Positions 5,340 to 31,780 of a stretch of DNA of 64,000 nt are shown piece by piece. The stretch spans positions 2,067,001-2,131,000 of the forward strand of contig CP159373.1 in assembly GCA_032595685.2 (NCBI GenBank), in the 5' to 3' direction. The first letter of the stretch is position 1. Every line of letters starts with the position of its first letter. This DNA is from Candidatus Electrothrix aestuarii (GTDB taxonomy: Bacteria; Desulfobacterota; Desulfobulbia; Desulfobulbales; Desulfobulbaceae). The translations under genes and the position numbers were made by a program. Under the pieces are notes generated by a model, which saw only the letters and a program-made list of their open reading frames with translations, had not been told where the DNA came from and did not search any database.

Positions 5340-7055
5340 TCAGAAAGCAAAATTCGCCTGATCCTTTTCTCGGTCGATCAGGGCCGCCCCGGTCGCGTTC
5401 CCTACTTCGTAATGATCAGGAAAGCGGGCCGTGGTGTGCAGGCGTTTTGCCACTGCGGGCAGGAAACAGCGTGCAGCGGCTCCAATTCCGATGATCGGAA
5501 TTTTGACCGCAACGCGAAGGGAGAACAGTTCGTTATCCATACTGCTAAAAAAGGGGACAGCCTCGGTACCATTCCAGGCCTTGCGGCCGAGATAGTCGAG
5601 AATGATACCTTCGATGGTTTTTTCCGCTTCTGTCACCACCTGCCGACAGAGCGACTCGACATCCATGTCCAGGGAGGCTGCTAAGGCTCGTGCCCCGTGT
5701 TCGGCCTGTTTTTTGCTACCAATGTGCAGTTTGCCGAGAACGTGCAGGGCATCCGTGGGGGTGAAGCCCGCCATTCGCACCTGCTGGAGATAGGCCAGGC
5801 GTTCCAGCCGTTTTTCTAGAAGAATTCCTGATAGGCCGGTTTGTTGCGTGAGAACTTCCAGATTGGCTGGGCCATGTTCCTGCAGACAGAAGAGGATTTC
5901 ATCTTCGCTGACGATTTCTTCGCTCAGACCTTCCACCGGTAGAACCACGGCGTTGCGCATGCCACAGCCCAGCCATTGCTCGGGATCAGGCATATTTTCG
6001 GTCATGCAGAGGGGCTGAACCCGGGTGGCTTCCAGGCGAATTTTCGCTCGACGGCTGCAGCTGTTCCCTTGTTCGAGAGAACAGTCATAATCTGAAGAGC
6101 AGATGACATGAGCGTCTCCGCCACCAGCTGCCGTGTACATATCAATGGCCTCTACATGAGTTCGCCATTGGCCGATCCGGCAACCTTCATCGCTCAGGAC
6201 TGGGTGTCCGTCCCGGATCATGCAGACATCTGTGGTTGTGCCGCCCACGTCAACGATCAGGGCGGTGGGCTCGCCAGCTGTGCAACCAAAACGGGCTGTG
6301 GCTGCAGGGCCACTGGCCATAGTGATTGCCGCCCGACGAACCGCTGTGTCTAAGCCAACACCTTTGCCGTTTCCGCAGATAATGGTGACCGGGCAGTTTA
6401 ATCCCGCATTGAGCATGGACGTTTTCACTGAAGAGAGAAAACTGACCATAAGGGGCATAAGTTTAGCATGCAAACAGGCTGTGGCTGCCCGTGCCTGCAT
6501 GCCCGGATTATCACTGACCTGGTGAGAACAAAAAACTGGTTTGGGATCAATCATAGTGATGGCCTCTTCAGCCACCAGCTCATGGGTTGGGTTCTTGATG
6601 GACATGCCGCCACAGACTGCGTAGCTATCCACTTCGTCCTTGAGGCCGTGGACCGAATCAACCAAGCCTTCGATATCCAGGGGTTCATCCTCTTCGCCGG
6701 TGATTTTATGACCGCCCTTGAGGAAGATGTTGGCTGTAATGGGCAGTTTAAAATGACGAACATAGCCGAAGACCAGTAATCCCACCCGGGCCCCCCGATC
6801 TTCGACCACGGCATTGGTTGCCAGGGTTGTGGAGACGGAAAGCCCTATGATATCTTCAGGAACAACATCTGTTGCTAGGAGTCGCTGTAGGACTCGGCCA
6901 ACACCTATGCCTAGATTATGGTGGGTTGTTGGCTCTTTAACAGCATGCACGACCTCCAAGGTTTTGTCATCAATGAGGACTCCGTCTGTGCAGGTCCCTC
7001 CGGTATCTATACCGATACGGTAGCAACGCACGTATTCTCTTACCAGCTTGCCCAT
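5340..7055 (-). CDS. Hydantoinase/oxoprolinase family protein (HyuA-like)
   Basis: This is an ASKHA-fold ATPase of the hydantoinase A / 5-oxoprolinase / acetone carboxylase beta family. The phosphate-binding loops are IGIDTGGTCTDG near residue 14 and IVDVGGTTTD near residue 265; the H/N-rich TNAVVED segment lies between them. At 571 residues it is shorter than full HyuA (about 680). No HyuB-like partner is adjacent, so the substrate cannot be inferred. It is the first gene of a short operon with the membrane hydrolase that follows it. Confidence 0.82.
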   Translation of the reverse strand: MGKLVREYVRCYRIGIDTGGTCTDGVLIDDKTLEVVHAVKEPTTHHNLGIGVGRVLQRLLATDVVPEDIIGLSVSTTLATNAVVEDRGARVGLLVFGYVRHFKLPITANIFLKGGHKITGEEDEPLDIEGLVDSVHGLKDEVDSYAVCGGMSIKNPTHELVAEEAITMIDPKPVFCSHQVSDNPGMQARAATACLHAKLMPLMVSFLSSVKTSMLNAGLNCPVTIICGNGKGVGLDTAVRRAAITMASGPAATARFGCTAGEPTALIVDVGGTTTDVCMIRDGHPVLSDEGCRIGQWRTHVEAIDMYTAAGGGDAHVICSSDYDCSLEQGNSCSRRAKIRLEATRVQPLCMTENMPDPEQWLGCGMRNAVVLPVEGLSEEIVSEDEILFCLQEHGPANLEVLTQQTGLSGILLEKRLERLAYLQQVRMAGFTPTDALHVLGKLHIGSKKQAEHGARALAASLDMDVESLCRQVVTEAEKTIEGIILDYLGRKAWNGTEAVPFFSSMDNELFSLRVAVKIPIIGIGAAARCFLPAVAKRLHTTARFPDHYEVGNATGAALIDREKDQANFAF

Positions 7056-19392: not shown

Positions 19393-19469
19393 GGGCCTAT
19401 AGCTCAGTTGGCTAGAGCCATCGGCTCATAACCGATAGGTCCTTGGTTCGAATCCAAGTAGGCCCACCA
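19393..19469 (+). tRNA. tRNA with CAU anticodon (Met or lysidine-modified Ile2)
   Basis: A complete cloverleaf is visible: the acceptor stem GGGCCTA pairs with TAGGCCC, the anticodon stem ATCGG/CCGAT encloses CTCATAA, and the T-arm is CTTGG-TTCGAAT-CCAAG. CCA is encoded (19467-19469). The first acceptor pair is G-C, so it is not the usual initiator type. Elongator Met and Ile2 (CAU read as AUA after lysidine formation) cannot be separated by eye. Confidence 0.93.
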
Positions 19470-21960: not shown

Positions 21961-22330
21961 CAGGGCGGACGCATGGTCGCTCCGGCTTCAGCCGGAGAGG
22001 AAAGTCCGAACACCAAAGGGCGCGGTGGTTCCTAACGGGAACTCCGGGTAACCGGGGGAAAGTGCCACAGAAAAGACACCGCCGATGGGACGGCTTGCCG
22101 TTCACAGGTAAGGTTGAAATGGTGAGGTAAGAGCTCACCGCCTTTATGGCGACATAAAGGGCAGGGTAAACCCCACCGGGTGCAAAACCAAATAGGGAAA
22201 CGTTTGAGGGCGGTCCGTCCAAAGTTTCCGGGTAGGTTGCACGAGGTGCCGGGCAACCGGCATCCCAGTCAAATGATCATGGCCTGCTTCGGCAGGAACA
22301 GAATTCGGCTTATAGTCCGCCCTGTTTTTT
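21961..22330 (+). ncRNA. rnpB: RNase P RNA, bacterial type A
   Basis: The catalytic RNA of RNase P, which trims tRNA 5' ends. The conserved cores are visible: GAGGAAAGTCCG near 21998, ACAGAAA near 22066, GGTAAGGTTGAAA near 22108, AAACCCCACCGGGTGCAAAA near 22168 and CCCAGTCAAATGATC near 22264. The ends CAGGGCGGAC (21961-21970) and GTCCGCCCTG (22315-22324) pair as helix P1 and are followed by seven T, so P1 may also work as the terminator. Several open frames crossing this RNA are not genes. Confidence 0.95.
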
Positions 22331-24002: not shown

Positions 24003-26732
24003 TTACTGCATCAGTAACAAATAGACGGCGGGTAGCCATCCCATTGGTTTTTTTAGTGCATACGCCCACAGCTCTCTGCCGTTGGGTCCGTTATAGGCAT
24101 TGAAATAGAGCAGCCCGTCCACAGCGGTCAGATAGTCCGGGTACGAGCTACCTGCACCCGCGTAAATGTCTTTGACCATGACGGTTCCCGCCTCTGTACC
24201 GTCGCTCTTCCACAGCTCATCGCCGTTGGTCTCGTCATCGGCACTGAAATAGAGCAGCCCGTCCACAGCAGTCAGATACTCCGGGTACGAGCTGCTTGAG
24301 CCCGCACGAATGTCTTTGATCATGACGGTTCCCGTCTCTGTGCCGTCGCTCTTCCACAGCTCATAGCCCTTGGTTCCGTCATAGGCGCTGAAATAGAGCA
24401 GCCCGTCCATAGTGGTCAAATTTTGCAGGCGCGAGCTGCCTGAGCCCGCGTAAATGTCTTTGACCATGACGGTTCCCACCTCTGTGCCGTCGCTTTTCCA
24501 CAGCTCTTCGCCGTTGGTTCCGTCAGAGGCCCTGAAATAGAGCAGACCGGCTACAGCGGTCAGATTCTCTGGGTTCGAGTTGCTTGCGCCCGCGTAAATG
24601 TCTTTGACCATGACGGTTCCCACCTCTGTGCCGTCGCTTTTCCACAGCTCTTCGCCGTTGGTTTCTTCAGAGGCACTGAAATAGAGCAGCCCGTCCATAG
24701 TGGTCAAATTTTGCAGGCGCGAGCTGCCTGAGCCCGCGTAAATGTCTTTGACCATGACGGTTCCCACCTCTGTGCCGTCGCTTTTCCACAGCTCATAGCC
24801 GTTGGTTCCGTCATAGGCCCTGAAATAGAGCAGCCCGTCCACAGCGATCAGGTTCTCCGGGTACGAGCCGCTTCCGCCCGTGCGAATGTCTTTGACCATG
24901 ACGGTTCCCGCCTCTGTCCCGTCGCTCTTCCACAGCTCGCTGCCGTTGATTCCGTCATCGGCTCTGAAGTAGAGTAGCTCGTCCACAGCGGTCAAATCGG
25001 CCGGGTACGAGCCGTTTCCGCCCGTGCGAATGTCTTTGGCCATGACGGTTCCCGCCTCTGTCCCGTCGCTTTTCCACAGCTCATAGCCGTTGGTTCCGTC
25101 ATCGGCCCTGAAATAGAGCAGCCCGTCCATAGTGGTTAGGTACTCCGGGTTCGAGCTGGTTGAGCCCTCGTAAATGTCTTTGACCATGACGGTTCCCGCC
25201 TCTGTCCCGTCGCTCTTCCACAGCTCATAGCCGTTGGTCTCGTCATCGGCCCTGAAATAGAGTAACCCGTCCATAGCGGTCAAATACTGCGGGTTCGAGC
25301 CGCTTGTCCATGTATTATTGATATCCCCAAGCAAAACCGTTCCCGCTTCTGTCCCGTCGCTCTTCCACAGCTCTCTGTCGTTGGTTTCGTCATAGGCATT
25401 GAAATAGAGCAGGCCGTCCATAGCGATCAGGTTCTCCGGGTACGAGCCGCTTCCGCCCGTGCGAATGTCTTTGACCATGACGGTTCCCGCCTCTGTCCCG
25501 TCGCTCTTCCACAGCTCTCTGCCGTTGATTTCGTCATCGCAACTGAAATAGAGCAGCCCGTCCACAGCGGTCAAATATTGCGGGTACGAGCTCCTTGCGC
25601 CCGCGTCAATGTTTTTGACCATGACGGTTCCCGCCTCTGTCCCGTCGCTCTTCCATAGCTCTCTGCCGTTGATTCCGTCATCGGCTTGGAAATAGAGCAG
25701 CCCGTCCACAGCGGTCAAATGGGCCGGGTACGAAGTGCTTGAGCCCGCACGAATATCTTTGACCATGACGGTTCCCGCCTCTGTCCCGTCGCTCTTCCAC
25801 AGCTCTTCCCCGTTGGTTCCGTCATCGGTCGTGAAATAGAGCAGCCCGTCCACAGCGGTCAGATCATCCGGGTTTGAGCTGCTTGGGCCCGCGTAAATGT
25901 CTTTGACCATGACAGTTCCCGCCTCAGTCCCGTCGCTCTTCCACAGCTCTTCGCCATTGGTTCCGTCATCGGCCCTGAAATAGAGCAGCCCGTCCACAGC
26001 GGTCAGGTTTTCTGGGTTCGAGTTGCTTGCGCCCTCGTAAATGTCTTTGACCATGACGGTTCCCGTCTCTGTCCCGTCGCTTTTCCACAGCTCTTCGCCG
26101 TTGCTTCCGTCATTGGCACTGAAATAGAGCAGTCCGTCCACAGAGGTCAGATAGTCTGGGTACGAGCTGTTTGCGCCCGCGTAAATGTCTTTGACCATGA
26201 CGGTTCCCGCCTCAGTCCCGTCGCTCTTCCACAGCTCATAGCCGTTGGTTCCGTCATAGGCCCTGAAATAGAGCAGCCCGTCCACAGCGGTCAGATTGTA
26301 TGGTTCCGAGTTGTTTGCGCCTGCGTAAATGTCTTTGACCATGACGGTTCCCGCCTCTGTCCCGTCGCTCTTCCACAGCTCAGAGCCGTTGGTTCCGTCA
26401 GAGGCCCTGAAATAGAGCAGCCCGTCCACAACGGTTAGATCCTCCGGGCTTGAGCTGCTTGGGCCCGCGTAAATATCTTTCACCATGACGGTTCCCGTCT
26501 CTGTCCCGTCGCTCTTCCACAGCTCTCTGCCGTGGGGTCCGTCAAAGGCGGTGAAATAGTAGATACTGCCCAGGGCAACTCCTTGGGACGGATCAGAGCC
26601 TTGTGTAGACAGCGTCATGATATCCTTGACCAGATACGGTTCTTCTTCTGCTATTGCGCTTAACGGCAGCAGGGCCAGCAGCACGACAGTGGTTAAGGTA
26701 ATCCGCCAAGAATGCATTTGTTTGTTTTCCAT
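24003..26732 (-). CDS. Secreted ELWxxDGT-repeat protein
   Basis: After a signal peptide (cleavage near residue 28, before EEEPYLVKD) the mature protein is almost only repeats. Seventeen units of 48 residues (one of 49) run from about residue 70 to 886, each starting ELWKSDGTExGTVMVKDI and containing LTAVDGLLYF near the middle. A last ELW opens a short 23-residue tail. The family is predicted to form a beta-propeller-like or solenoid fold and is exported; a function is not established. The repeats are nearly identical, and units 13 and 15 are almost copies of each other, which shows recent unequal exchange. AGGAGG lies five bases before the start. No anchor or sorting domain is seen at the C-terminus. 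Confidence 0.9.
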   Translation of the reverse strand: MENKQMHSWRITLTTVVLLALLPLSAIAEEEPYLVKDIMTLSTQGSDPSQGVALGSIYYFTAFDGPHGRELWKSDGTETGTVMVKDIYAGPSSSSPEDLTVVDGLLYFRASDGTNGSELWKSDGTEAGTVMVKDIYAGANNSEPYNLTAVDGLLYFRAYDGTNGYELWKSDGTEAGTVMVKDIYAGANSSYPDYLTSVDGLLYFSANDGSNGEELWKSDGTETGTVMVKDIYEGASNSNPENLTAVDGLLYFRADDGTNGEELWKSDGTEAGTVMVKDIYAGPSSSNPDDLTAVDGLLYFTTDDGTNGEELWKSDGTEAGTVMVKDIRAGSSTSYPAHLTAVDGLLYFQADDGINGRELWKSDGTEAGTVMVKNIDAGARSSYPQYLTAVDGLLYFSCDDEINGRELWKSDGTEAGTVMVKDIRTGGSGSYPENLIAMDGLLYFNAYDETNDRELWKSDGTEAGTVLLGDINNTWTSGSNPQYLTAMDGLLYFRADDETNGYELWKSDGTEAGTVMVKDIYEGSTSSNPEYLTTMDGLLYFRADDGTNGYELWKSDGTEAGTVMAKDIRTGGNGSYPADLTAVDELLYFRADDGINGSELWKSDGTEAGTVMVKDIRTGGSGSYPENLIAVDGLLYFRAYDGTNGYELWKSDGTEVGTVMVKDIYAGSGSSRLQNLTTMDGLLYFSASEETNGEELWKSDGTEVGTVMVKDIYAGASNSNPENLTAVAGLLYFRASDGTNGEELWKSDGTEVGTVMVKDIYAGSGSSRLQNLTTMDGLLYFSAYDGTKGYELWKSDGTETGTVMIKDIRAGSSSSYPEYLTAVDGLLYFSADDETNGDELWKSDGTEAGTVMVKDIYAGAGSSYPDYLTAVDGLLYFNAYNGPNGRELWAYALKKPMGWLPAVYLLLMQ
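24075..26525 (-). repeat. Seventeen tandem 144-bp coding repeats
   Basis: The repeat units of the ELWxxDGT protein are conserved at the DNA level too: the segment coding for ELWKSDGTE recurs every 144 bases with few silent changes. This suggests homogenisation and expected copy-number variation between strains. Short-read assembly of this stretch may be unreliable. Confidence 0.9.
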
Positions 26733-27355: not shown

Positions 27356-27667
27356 ATGAACGATGCGAAGAAGCGGGACTTTGTTGCCCAGATGATTTCT
27401 CTGGTTGAAGCGGAACAGGATGCCCTGACAGCCAAGGGCTTTAACCCAACTGAGCGGCTGGACACCCTCAAGGTGAAGAAGCAGGCTGCCGACAGCACGG
27501 AAACCGCTCAGCAGGAAGCAGCTGCCAAGGCCCAGGAGGCCACGGCAGAGGCCAATCAGGCCCTGGCGGATGCCTACAAGGATGCTTCCGACTGTGCCGA
27601 CCTGATTTCCGGTCTTCTTGGCAAGGACAACGAGCTGGTCAAGAAGATGCGGAAGTTCCGCAAGTAG
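27356..27667 (+). CDS. Small Ala/Lys-rich coiled-coil protein of unknown function
   Basis: This 103-residue protein was not recognised. The ATG at 27356 has GGAGAG about six bases upstream. Residues about 40-75 are an alanine-, glutamine- and glutamate-rich helix (AAAKAQEATAEANQALADAY), probably coiled coil. The C-terminus is short and basic (KKMRKFRK). There is no signal peptide or membrane helix. It directly precedes the 21-bp repeat array and a toxin-antitoxin pair. Codon usage looks normal, which supports a real gene. Confidence 0.6.
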   Translation: MNDAKKRDFVAQMISLVEAEQDALTAKGFNPTERLDTLKVKKQAADSTETAQQEAAAKAQEATAEANQALADAYKDASDCADLISGLLGKDNELVKKMRKFRK

Positions 27668-27708
27668 CTTTTCCGTCTCTGCTTCTTCCTTCTTTTTGTA
27701 TTCGTCCT

Positions 27709-28275
27709 TCTCTTCCTGGAGATGATCTCCCGTCACAAGGGGATTGCCTTGCCTCACCAGGTGGTCATGCCTCATCACAGGGGGCGAACGATCATTCCCC
27801 TGTGCAGAACGCTTCTGCACCACCAAAGAATGGTTGTCCCCTTGTGAATGATGATCAATTTGTGCCGAATCATGACGAAATACTACCGAATGATGACAAA
27901 AACATTGCGCATTGTCATTATTCCCTACCTCGGAACGCTTCTGCAACGCCGCAGGGTGATGTTGCGATAGGTCAGCACGGCTCTGCACCTCCGAAGAATC
28001 ATTCTGCGATAGTTAGGGATCGCTCTGCACAAGATTAGGAAGGTTCTGCGACACCGCAGGATGATGCTGTAACGGTGTCGAATGACTCTGCACTGTCGAA
28101 GAGTGGTTCTGCAACGCCGAAGGATCGTTCTGCGCAAGAGAAGTACGACGTTGCGATAGATCAGGACGGTTCTGTACTGGTGACGAATAATGCTACGGAA
28201 GCGCTGAAGCATTCTGCGTAAGATTGGTACGGTTCTGTACCGAGAGAAAACGTTTCAGTAGAGTAACAGGAAGAT
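27709..28275 (+). repeat. 27-unit degenerate tandem array with strict 21-bp period
   Basis: Units of exactly 21 bases follow without gap for 567 bases. The most regular ones start TCTGCA and continue CGCCGAAG-GATGRT; examples begin at 27814, 27940, 27982, 28024, 28045, 28108 and 28234. Translated in the register of the units, each gives a heptad such as S-A-T-P-K-D-R. Stop codons in units starting 28024 and 28213 break this frame, so it is not one intact gene. The register differs from the frame of the upstream 103-residue gene. The units are not interspersed with unique spacers, so this is not a CRISPR array. Period 21 equals two helix turns. Confidence 0.85.
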
Positions 28276-30231: not shown

Positions 30232-31780
30232 TCAAAAAGCCAACCTCTCATACAGGCAATACTGCAGGACTTGCCTTGGCATTTGCTCAAAGAACGCAAA
30301 AAATCGAGCGCTAATATGATTCAGCTGGCTGCGTAAAAGTAAAAACCGTGAAAGATATAAATTTTCAAGCTGTTCCTGCAACTTCCTGAGCAGAACCATC
30401 AGATTCATGACCAGGAAAATACAGTTAATCCATGCTTCAGAGGTTCTCTGAAGTTTTGCCCGGATGTAGTTGAGTCGGTAGCCGTTTTTTCCTTGGCCAA
30501 ATTTCCCCTCAATGGGGATCCGTTCTCGACTATCCCGAATCCGTTGTGCTTTCAGTTCCCGAAGACGTTCTTTGTTTTCTTCTGTCTCTTTCGGGGACCT
30601 GCCCATTCGTTTACCACCAAATCGAATGCCTTTCTCTTTGAGATATTTACGATTTTCTCTTGTTCCGTAAATTTGATCAGCAAGCACTGCAGCAGGATAG
30701 TAGCCATTTCGGCGTTTGTAGTTTTCCACCTGCGCCTGCAAATCCGTGCCTTCGTTGAAGGCATCCCAACCAATATGATCGACAAAAGCCAAACCATCGA
30801 CCATGCTCACGCTGAGTTTGGCACCGAACTCCACATTTTTACCTGCTTTCCCACGAACTATTGGTCGTACATGAGGTTGGGCAATGGAAACAATTCGGTC
30901 ATCGCAGCGTCGTTTTCGTTTTTGTACATCTCATCCTGCTGGCGATACACATGCTGAATGATCCAATACTGTCGTTGTTGCTGATGGGGAAGTGGAAAAG
31001 GTGCCGATCCAACATTATCAAGCAACTCATCAATATATCGTAAATTTCTTCGGACGTACTGTAATTGCTGCCGAAGTCCGCGCCGCAGATTTTTTTGCCT
31101 GGTTTCTTTTTTTTAGCCAGATTCAGGTAGTTTTTGCGAGCAACTCTCCGATATGTCCTGGGCTTTTTGGGGTAGCCACTCTGTTTGTACAGATCATCAA
31201 TCAGCTGCTCGGAAATCTCACGAGCTTCGTTGAGTAAACTCAGATCAGTCGGGTAACGAATCGCTTGCTCAGCAACCGTTGCATCGACAAGCATTTTCCC
31301 CTTATTTTCAACGGGCTCTTCCTCACCCTTATCCTCTTTTTCATCTTCATTTGTCGTACTTTTCTTTGAGAGAGCAAGTTTTTCCAAAATCACTTCTTCA
31401 AACGCAGAAAAGACATCCTTTCCCATCCGTTTTCGAATCTCAACAAACAGGCTCGGAGCTAGAGGTTGCTTGTCTTGAAAAGAAGAAAACCCAACAAAAT
31501 ACTGAAGATAGGGGTTCTCCTGAATCTGGAGTACGGTTTCTTCGTCACTGAGCGTCAGCTTATGTTTAATGATTAACGCGCCGATCACCAATCTGGCATT
31601 TTTGGCAGGTCGCCCCTGACGCGGGTCCAATGTTCGGTAATATCTGATGGCGAACTCATCCCACGGAATAACTTTATGCCATTTGATCCATCTGTTGTCA
31701 GGGTTCAGTTTGCCTCCAAAGGGAAGGCTGAATCCTTCAAGTGTAAGCTGTCTGTCACTGGTGTACCTGATCATGTGCAT
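30232..31780 (-). mobile_element. Decayed IS5/IS1182-type insertion sequence (transposase with two frameshifts)
   Basis: The N-terminal frame (31780 to about 31090) has the usual opening of these transposases, the DARLVIGALIIKHKL-like region and the first catalytic aspartate in GKMLVDATVAEQ. The frame then shifts at a run of seven A (minus strand, about 31090-31096), continues as the LRYIDELLDN…QQDEMY segment, and shifts again near 30915. The last part includes VRPIVRGKAG, SVSMVDG, VLADQIYGTRENR (second D) and GRIPIEGKFGQGKNGYRL-like E region, so DDE residues are all there. Both shifts could be repaired by one A each. Terminal inverted repeats could not be placed with confidence; the given limits are those of the coding part. 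Confidence 0.82.

Follow-up and report, generated by a model that had tools for sequence, protein, structure and literature searches.

Plasmid iterons and partition centromeres (ParR/parC, TubR/tubC and the Omega heptads) have short tandem sites that keep helical register and adjoin the gene of a small protein, and protein assembles cooperatively on these sites. Symmetric chromosome sites that are read by a dimer and serve to mark or bridge DNA are found in the MatP/matS, SlmA and ParB/parS systems. Palindromic repeats also occur as REPs, which are single or few stem-loops, and CRISPR arrays lie beside protein genes and keep their length, with identical repeats and unique spacers.

Here we describe an array of 21-bp units in a window of 64,000 nucleotides, the whole stretch of DNA analysed, from Candidatus Electrothrix aestuarii, a cable bacterium. 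It forms one of the two parts of a conserved gene-plus-array module that is seen in two phyla. The association of gene and array appears to be new, with a putative function; no description of it was found in open-licence PMC papers, among them passages of PMC10580974.

The 21-bp array in the window

The array occupies positions 27709 to 28275 of the window; no strand is assigned to it or to its parts. The original prediction of 27 units of exactly 21 bases without a gap is confirmed at this place. Identity at lags 21, 42 and 63 is 0.476, 0.482 and 0.476, with lag 18 next best (0.341), whereas 1000 dinucleotide shuffles of the array gave a maximum of 0.328 over all lags from 5 to 70. Elsewhere in the window (starts at about 23.4 to 29.0 kb left out) the best lag-21 stretch of equal size reached 0.352, and the autocorrelation that had been proposed as a check thus places lag 21 clearly above both the shuffles and the rest of the window. 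The units are modestly alike, as had been claimed, with a mean pairwise identity of 0.436 (0.476 between neighbouring units) and an unbroken phase. An independent extent rule put the periodic sequence at about 27688 to 28247, or offsets 20 to 579 past the stop of the companion gene, and the borders first given are good to one or two units. Tandem Repeats Finder at a score of 40 did not report the array, and intergenic repeats of this genus could be overlooked in this way.

The unit consensus is more palindromic than permuted columns (p=0.005). By eye, two kinds of unit are present in this genome, one ATCCCCNNGGGG/GTCAC-like and the other TCTGC-like, and the window array passes from the former through a conserved block into the latter. 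Its leading units (27730 to 27813), read by eye and with BLAST, resemble the GTCAC/ATCCCC kind of other arrays in the genome, and query positions of about 9 to 76 match other arrays by BLAST. The block of about four units at 27837 to 27931 is the most conserved among the arrays of the genus, with typically 80-90% identity to other species. The trailing units 12 to 27 (27940 to 28275) are of the TCTGC kind, judged from the consensus of units 12 to 26. Another species of the genus (G007) carries the window array at 98% identity over all 567 bp with no gap.

The window also holds a 909-aa open frame on the minus strand (24003 to 26732) that consists of about 17 ELWKSDGTEAGTVMVKDI-like repeats, each 144 bp (48 aa) long, and may encode a propeller or a secreted repeat protein. 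Behind the array, between 28447 and 29739, are Gp49/RelE-type toxin-like, dnstrm_HI1420-type antidote-like and Uma2-type genes. Next, on the minus strand (30232 to 31780), comes a DDE transposase that seems to be divided between two open frames, and a close copy of its first part is present at positions 261 to 1184 of locus L032. An RNase P RNA (class A) and a tRNA gene are located at 21961 to 22328 and 19393 to 19466, respectively.

The companion gene and its occurrence

The gene that ends 41 bp before the array (27356 to 27667, plus strand) encodes a 103-aa alanine-rich helical protein of an orphan family. Its AlphaFold2 model is all helix (pLDDT 93.3, pTM 0.57), and the C-terminus is a short basic helix. 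No Pfam or NCBIfam model matched the protein above cut-off, matches to PHROGs were weak (best E for the window protein 0.034) and those to PDB sequences were below cut-off or at chance level. Family, sequence and structure searches found no known DNA-binding domain or fold, and family searches found no initiator domain. The best Foldseek match to the model was not significant (E=2.0), and VIA-align 2, run on Foldseek's list, gave a match to an ESCRT-III/Snf7-like fold (Z 6.3, rmsd 4.9, 94 residues aligned) at a level that is common for helical models; neither program returned a structural match clearly above the helical background. The plasmid collection contained no match to the window protein, and 44 candidate stretches in viral contigs yielded 0 relatives in a scan that rests on one peptide pattern.

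Copies of the gene were examined at 83 places, 14 in the genus of the window and 69 in other genomes, and 82 of them had enough downstream sequence; the places in G346, which repeat those of G001, were left out, as were L109 (39 bases downstream) and L056 (contig ends at the gene). For each copy the strongest lag among 12 to 33 was scored in the kilobase after the stop and in the kilobase upstream. Lag 21 was strongest downstream in 72 of the 82 copies, always at 0.40 or above, which are not independent events as gene copies are related (the window and L070, for example). Upstream it was strongest in 11 of 82, two of these at 0.40 or above, and five more copies had another lag at that level. 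The mean lag-21 score was 0.53 downstream and 0.34 upstream. What had been noted as an unknown coiled-coil gene beside the array therefore proves to be a regular companion of such arrays. Nine evaluable copies had no downstream array (L063, L096, L098, L117, L118, L129, L131, L133 and L137), one of which, L118, shows period 21 on its upstream side (0.51), and in L088 lag 22 is just ahead of 21. A later search of the family, made after the pattern was found, gave an array behind 8 of 8 copies. Copies as distant as L088 and L090, about 28% identical to the window protein, have arrays with a period of 21-22 bp. The number of 21-bp units per array in the module varies between roughly 5 and 30 or more, and the family includes CAACCNNGGTTG, TTACCNNGGTAA and TGACCNNGGTCA arrays, each beside a member of the gene family.

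At the loci examined, the companion gene is the sole neighbour common to the arrays across phyla. Clustering of the ORFs round 75 loci showed no constant third partner; the next real neighbour cluster covers nine of the 75, and by eye the two largest such clusters look like an HNH-type protein and a GalE-type protein. At nine of these loci (L066, L092, L093, L099, L104, L105, L114, L122 and L130) a related ORF lies behind the array on the opposite strand and looks by eye like an HNH-type endonuclease. Four loci (L104, L105, L121 and L122) share a conserved leader, seen by eye, that extends from about 610 to about 320 bp ahead of the end of the gene, in which a Bacteroidota-like promoter and apparent hairpins were likewise recognised by eye.

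The original prediction suggested a search for further arrays, and these were found both at other places in the same genome and in relatives. The genome is a single contig of 5.11 Mb. Used as a query, the window array matches at about 0.49, 0.56, 0.75, 1.10, 3.54, 3.98 and 4.82 Mb, and a second query brings in a match at 4.44 Mb together with several short ones at 4.816-4.823 Mb. In all eight stretches extracted from the genome there is a region in which lag 21, 42 or 63 scores best. Two full paralogs of the companion gene (71% and 74% identity) are each followed directly by an array, and arrays without the gene are present elsewhere in the genome. Positions 2260-8400 of L032 (4.816-4.823 Mb) contain small genes resembling toxin-antitoxin pairs, between which lie short mini-arrays of the 21-bp type and a common longer repeat.

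A scan of named genomes for the companion protein returned 10 relatives. Three of the loci are in Desulfobulbaceae S24.Bin023 and coincide with those in G001 of the genus; the others are in Labilibaculum, Carboxylicivirga, Draconibacterium and two more records from Bacteroidota. Among 297 genomes drawn from the phylum of the window the gene was present in one, namely the genome of the window itself. It was found in 4 of 393 genomes from the order and 31 of 140 from the family of Draconibacterium aestuarii, which we take to be Prolixibacteraceae, and in 3 of 395 from the class and 8 of 71 from the family of Carboxylicivirga sediminis; these draws overlap. Within the genus, four of eight genomes have the gene (G000, G001, G003 and G007); it was not found in G002, G004, G005 (69% complete) and G006. 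The window array query matches exactly the four gene-bearing genomes. A query of the other array kind gave 15, 20 and 12 matches in G001, G003 and G007, and 0, 2, 2 and 2 short matches in the gene-less G002, G004, G005 and G006. The two matches in G004 fall in the non-array end of the query and the G005 and G006 matches in the part that covers the array, so that arrays accompany the gene but are not confined to genomes that bear it.

Symmetry and divergence of the units

Neither the palindromy of the units nor the recurrence of arrays in the genome and its relatives had been noticed in the original prediction. Of the 75 copies then in hand, 65 arrays passed the extent filter, and the unit consensus was palindromic (p<0.05 against permuted columns) in 49 of them, where about three would be expected by chance; in the other 16 it was not significantly so. 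The symmetric core is often NNNCC-NN-GGNNN, with outer letters specific to the locus. Array letters differ between loci even in one genome, as in L064 and L074, both of G348, and the homologues in the other phylum have different array letters and the same 21-bp period, which upholds the view that length rather than letters is kept. Spacings between motif hits, counted in 49 of the 65 arrays (those with a palindrome p of 0.05 or more left out), were multiples of 21 in 503 of 525 cases; the arrays were chosen for period 21, and this figure therefore speaks solely to the rarity of phase breaks.

The two arms of a unit vary without regard to each other's pairing. In the same 49 arrays, the arm match within units was 0.507, against 0.517 when right arms were dealt to other units, and in a wider set of 59 arrays, kept from 83 copies and six gene-less arrays, the values were 0.496 and 0.509 (Stouffer z -2.4). 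No compensatory change between paired arms was found in either set, and therefore the half-sites vary independently, as DNA half-sites do. There is a slight preference for unlike halves in the units of the 59-array set. The match of a left arm to the right arm of the next unit is slightly above average (0.20 +- 0.06 of 7 bases), perhaps as a result of local duplication.

Several arrays have a composition of their own. In L064, L140, L141 and L142 the units resemble free combinations of two half-site kinds (CGGC and ATTC, for example), and unlike pairs are somewhat commoner than like ones, following the general trend of the 59-array set. About 390 bp past the gene in L087, the 21-bp period gives way to an adjoining array of different sequence with a period of 14, and L053 has a 7-bp-period stretch at 5503-5629, so that multiples of 7 recur (21 and 14 in L087, 7 in L053).

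Array letters diverge faster than the protein. For proteins less than about 70% identical, array similarity does not rise above background (means 0.36-0.42); it is 0.59 at 70-80% and 0.92 above 90%. Protein and array co-vary across 63 loci (Mantel r 0.36, p 0.001; L080 and L082, with truncated genes, left out), a correlation that stems from the pairs with more than 70% identity. Change in the gene is not always accompanied by change in the array: the L139 array is similar to those of L067, L111 and L125 (0.81-0.83) despite proteins that are about 50% identical. Where two genomes carry the module at one chromosomal site, identity is lower in the module than in its flanks: for L092 and L122, per 50 alignment columns, the gene has 0.42-0.74 and the array 0.24-0.44, with flanks at 0.96-1.00 over most of the left and 0.84-0.98 on the right, and for L125 and L139 the values are 0.46-0.74 and 0.44-0.62, with flanks at 0.82-1.00 and 0.86-0.98. 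The array consensus of L125 and L139 is nevertheless similar (0.81).

In some pairs of copies the BLAST homology breaks off near -610 and +405, counted from the end of the gene. A mobile cassette was considered at first, but the left break in L121 is a MITE-like repeat, and the outer flank puts L121 and L122 at the same chromosomal site, so that movement as a unit is not supported. An integron cassette, raised as the L121 flank matches many places in G801 and G808, was dropped on the same evidence. MITE-like inverted repeats with many copies in several genomes were seen at 860-1040 and 1640-1800 of L121 and in L165.

Proposed mechanism, rival readings and known systems

The array is best read as double-stranded DNA with symmetric half-sites that probably lie on one face of the helix, because coding and stem signals are lacking, the units are symmetric, the spacing is 21 bp and terminator-like sites are present in most Bacteroidota copies. 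The original suggestion of a protein-binding array with sites two helix turns apart is supported, at the level of sequence, by the symmetric half-sites and the fixed spacing. The array would then be a DNA lattice on which a helical protein, most likely the product of the adjacent gene, assembles, a proposal for which we judge the chances to be evenly balanced. Each unit would present two facing half-sites on double-stranded DNA, and since 21 bp make two turns, every unit would be turned towards one side of the helix. Along the array a symmetric protein would assemble side by side. It would most likely be an oligomer encoded by the adjacent gene, which has no constant third partner and whose product ends in a short basic helix. 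The outcome would be an ordered stretch of protein-coated DNA, and gene-less arrays elsewhere in the genome could act as further docking places. Our first guess at the purpose is the marking or bridging of chromosome sites. Put more specifically, and with somewhat less than an even chance of being right, a small alanine-rich helical protein would polymerise on the adjacent half-site lattice, whose letters are diverse between loci and whose geometry is fixed, and each pair would be a private chromosomal address. We hold equally tentatively that this may be a new two-part chromosomal system, common to Bacteroidota and the Desulfobacterota-type genus of the window, with two half-site kinds mixed in some arrays.

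The same features can be read in other ways. Since 21 bases are seven codons, the original prediction offered a decayed heptad-coding region (S-A-T-P-K-D-R type), and the long open frames that span some near-perfect arrays (269 aa in L032) would suit heptapeptide repeats whose coding region is decayed or overlapping. The window array has no open frame among six; its S-A-T-P-K-D-R frame is indeed broken, as had been stated, but by three stops (28036, 28219 and 28264), where stops at two units had been reported. Intact frames in relatives, which would have made the array simply a broken protein gene, were sought, and 40 of 65 arrays had a frame free of stops, where permutation of the 21 columns gave 34.5 +- 3.2, an excess of about 1.7 s.d. 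that is not significant. The most conserved block has no codon phase (0.749, 0.786 and 0.756 over 17 distinct rows), and the unrelated letters of different arrays would yield unrelated peptides, all of which leaves heptad coding unsupported and extremely improbable. A transcribed array acting as RNA, in the form of a string of small hairpins with arms of about 5 and a 4-base loop, would fit its position 3' of the gene in the copies examined and palindromes that could fold. Against such hairpins speak the lack of compensatory change within units and a central dinucleotide with no clear strand preference (AA 79, TT 68). A terminator-like hairpin with a T-run is found within 110 bp past the stop in 39 of 60 Bacteroidota copies, compared with 8 of 60 for a control stretch further down, and in 32 of the 60 it precedes the array start; of the remaining sites two (L119 and L139) are inside the array and five belong to array-less copies. 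None was found in the 14 copies of the window's genus, a point in favour of the RNA reading. Rfam at gathering score gave just the RNase P RNA and the tRNA in the window, both outside the array, and one sub-threshold match in nine related loci. Taken with the absence of arm compensation, this makes an RNA function quite unlikely.

Tandem repeats may also be kept behind a gene by slippage and unequal exchange, with no function at all. The fast change of array letters, the range from near-perfect to heavily diverged arrays and the existence of copies without an array would all be natural in such an idle satellite, but the same 21-bp length and symmetric units recur with unrelated letters in two phyla, and the window units remain in phase without a break at 44% identity. 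Decay of letters with no change of length is unexpected of idle DNA, and we regard this explanation as unlikely. It is also somewhat unlikely, in our estimate, that the array is a row of sites for some other protein, such as a host regulator, a nucleoid protein or a recombinase, and that the helical protein is not the binder. The companion protein has no recognisable DNA-binding domain, its coupling to the array is confined to close homologs in the Mantel comparison and gene-less arrays exist, all of which would suit this reading. However, no other neighbour is common across phyla, the next cluster being limited to nine of 75 loci, and the letters differ within one genome, between the two G348 loci named above, and one general host factor is therefore hard to sustain.

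Fixed spacing with free letters is unusual in DNA. If it is true that the protein binds its own array, the natural pairs would show how helical-phase assembly works and how the choice of site evolves, and might be a source of orthogonal DNA-coating modules. The proposal gives a testable function to an orphan protein that is encoded by 31 of the 140 genomes drawn from one Bacteroidota family, and the module explains intergenic repeats of the genus that could otherwise be overlooked or misread as false proteins.

Among the systems outlined at the start, the likeness to CRISPR is limited to an array beside a protein gene and a length that is kept; the units of the module abut, their letters are diverged (0.436 identity) and unique spacers are absent, and a CRISPR array is ruled out on these grounds. 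As to cas genes, the ORF clusters round the 75 loci showed no generally shared neighbour, and the companion protein matches no family above cut-off. With REP/BIME elements and RAYT the module has in common extragenic palindromes that often lie behind genes, in several copies per genome. It differs from them in its contiguous 21-bp lattice, its lack of arm compensation and its other companion gene; arms of one unit pair no better than arms of different units, unlike the paired arms of REP stem-loops. The sites of MatP/matS, SlmA and ParB/parS are mostly dispersed and conserved in sequence, whereas those of the module stand in rows with locus-specific letters, and the module protein matches no Pfam or NCBIfam model above cut-off. 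Iterons and partition centromeres resemble the module in having tandem sites in helical register, here with a 21-bp period, beside a small protein gene. No NTPase (ParA, ParM or TubZ) or initiator was found among the ORF clusters round the 75 loci. The module also departs from these systems in that its array lies behind the gene, often behind a terminator, that it is chromosomal, with up to 27 or more units, and that its letters change from locus to locus. By resemblance, iterons or partition centromeres would nevertheless be the nearest known systems in operation.
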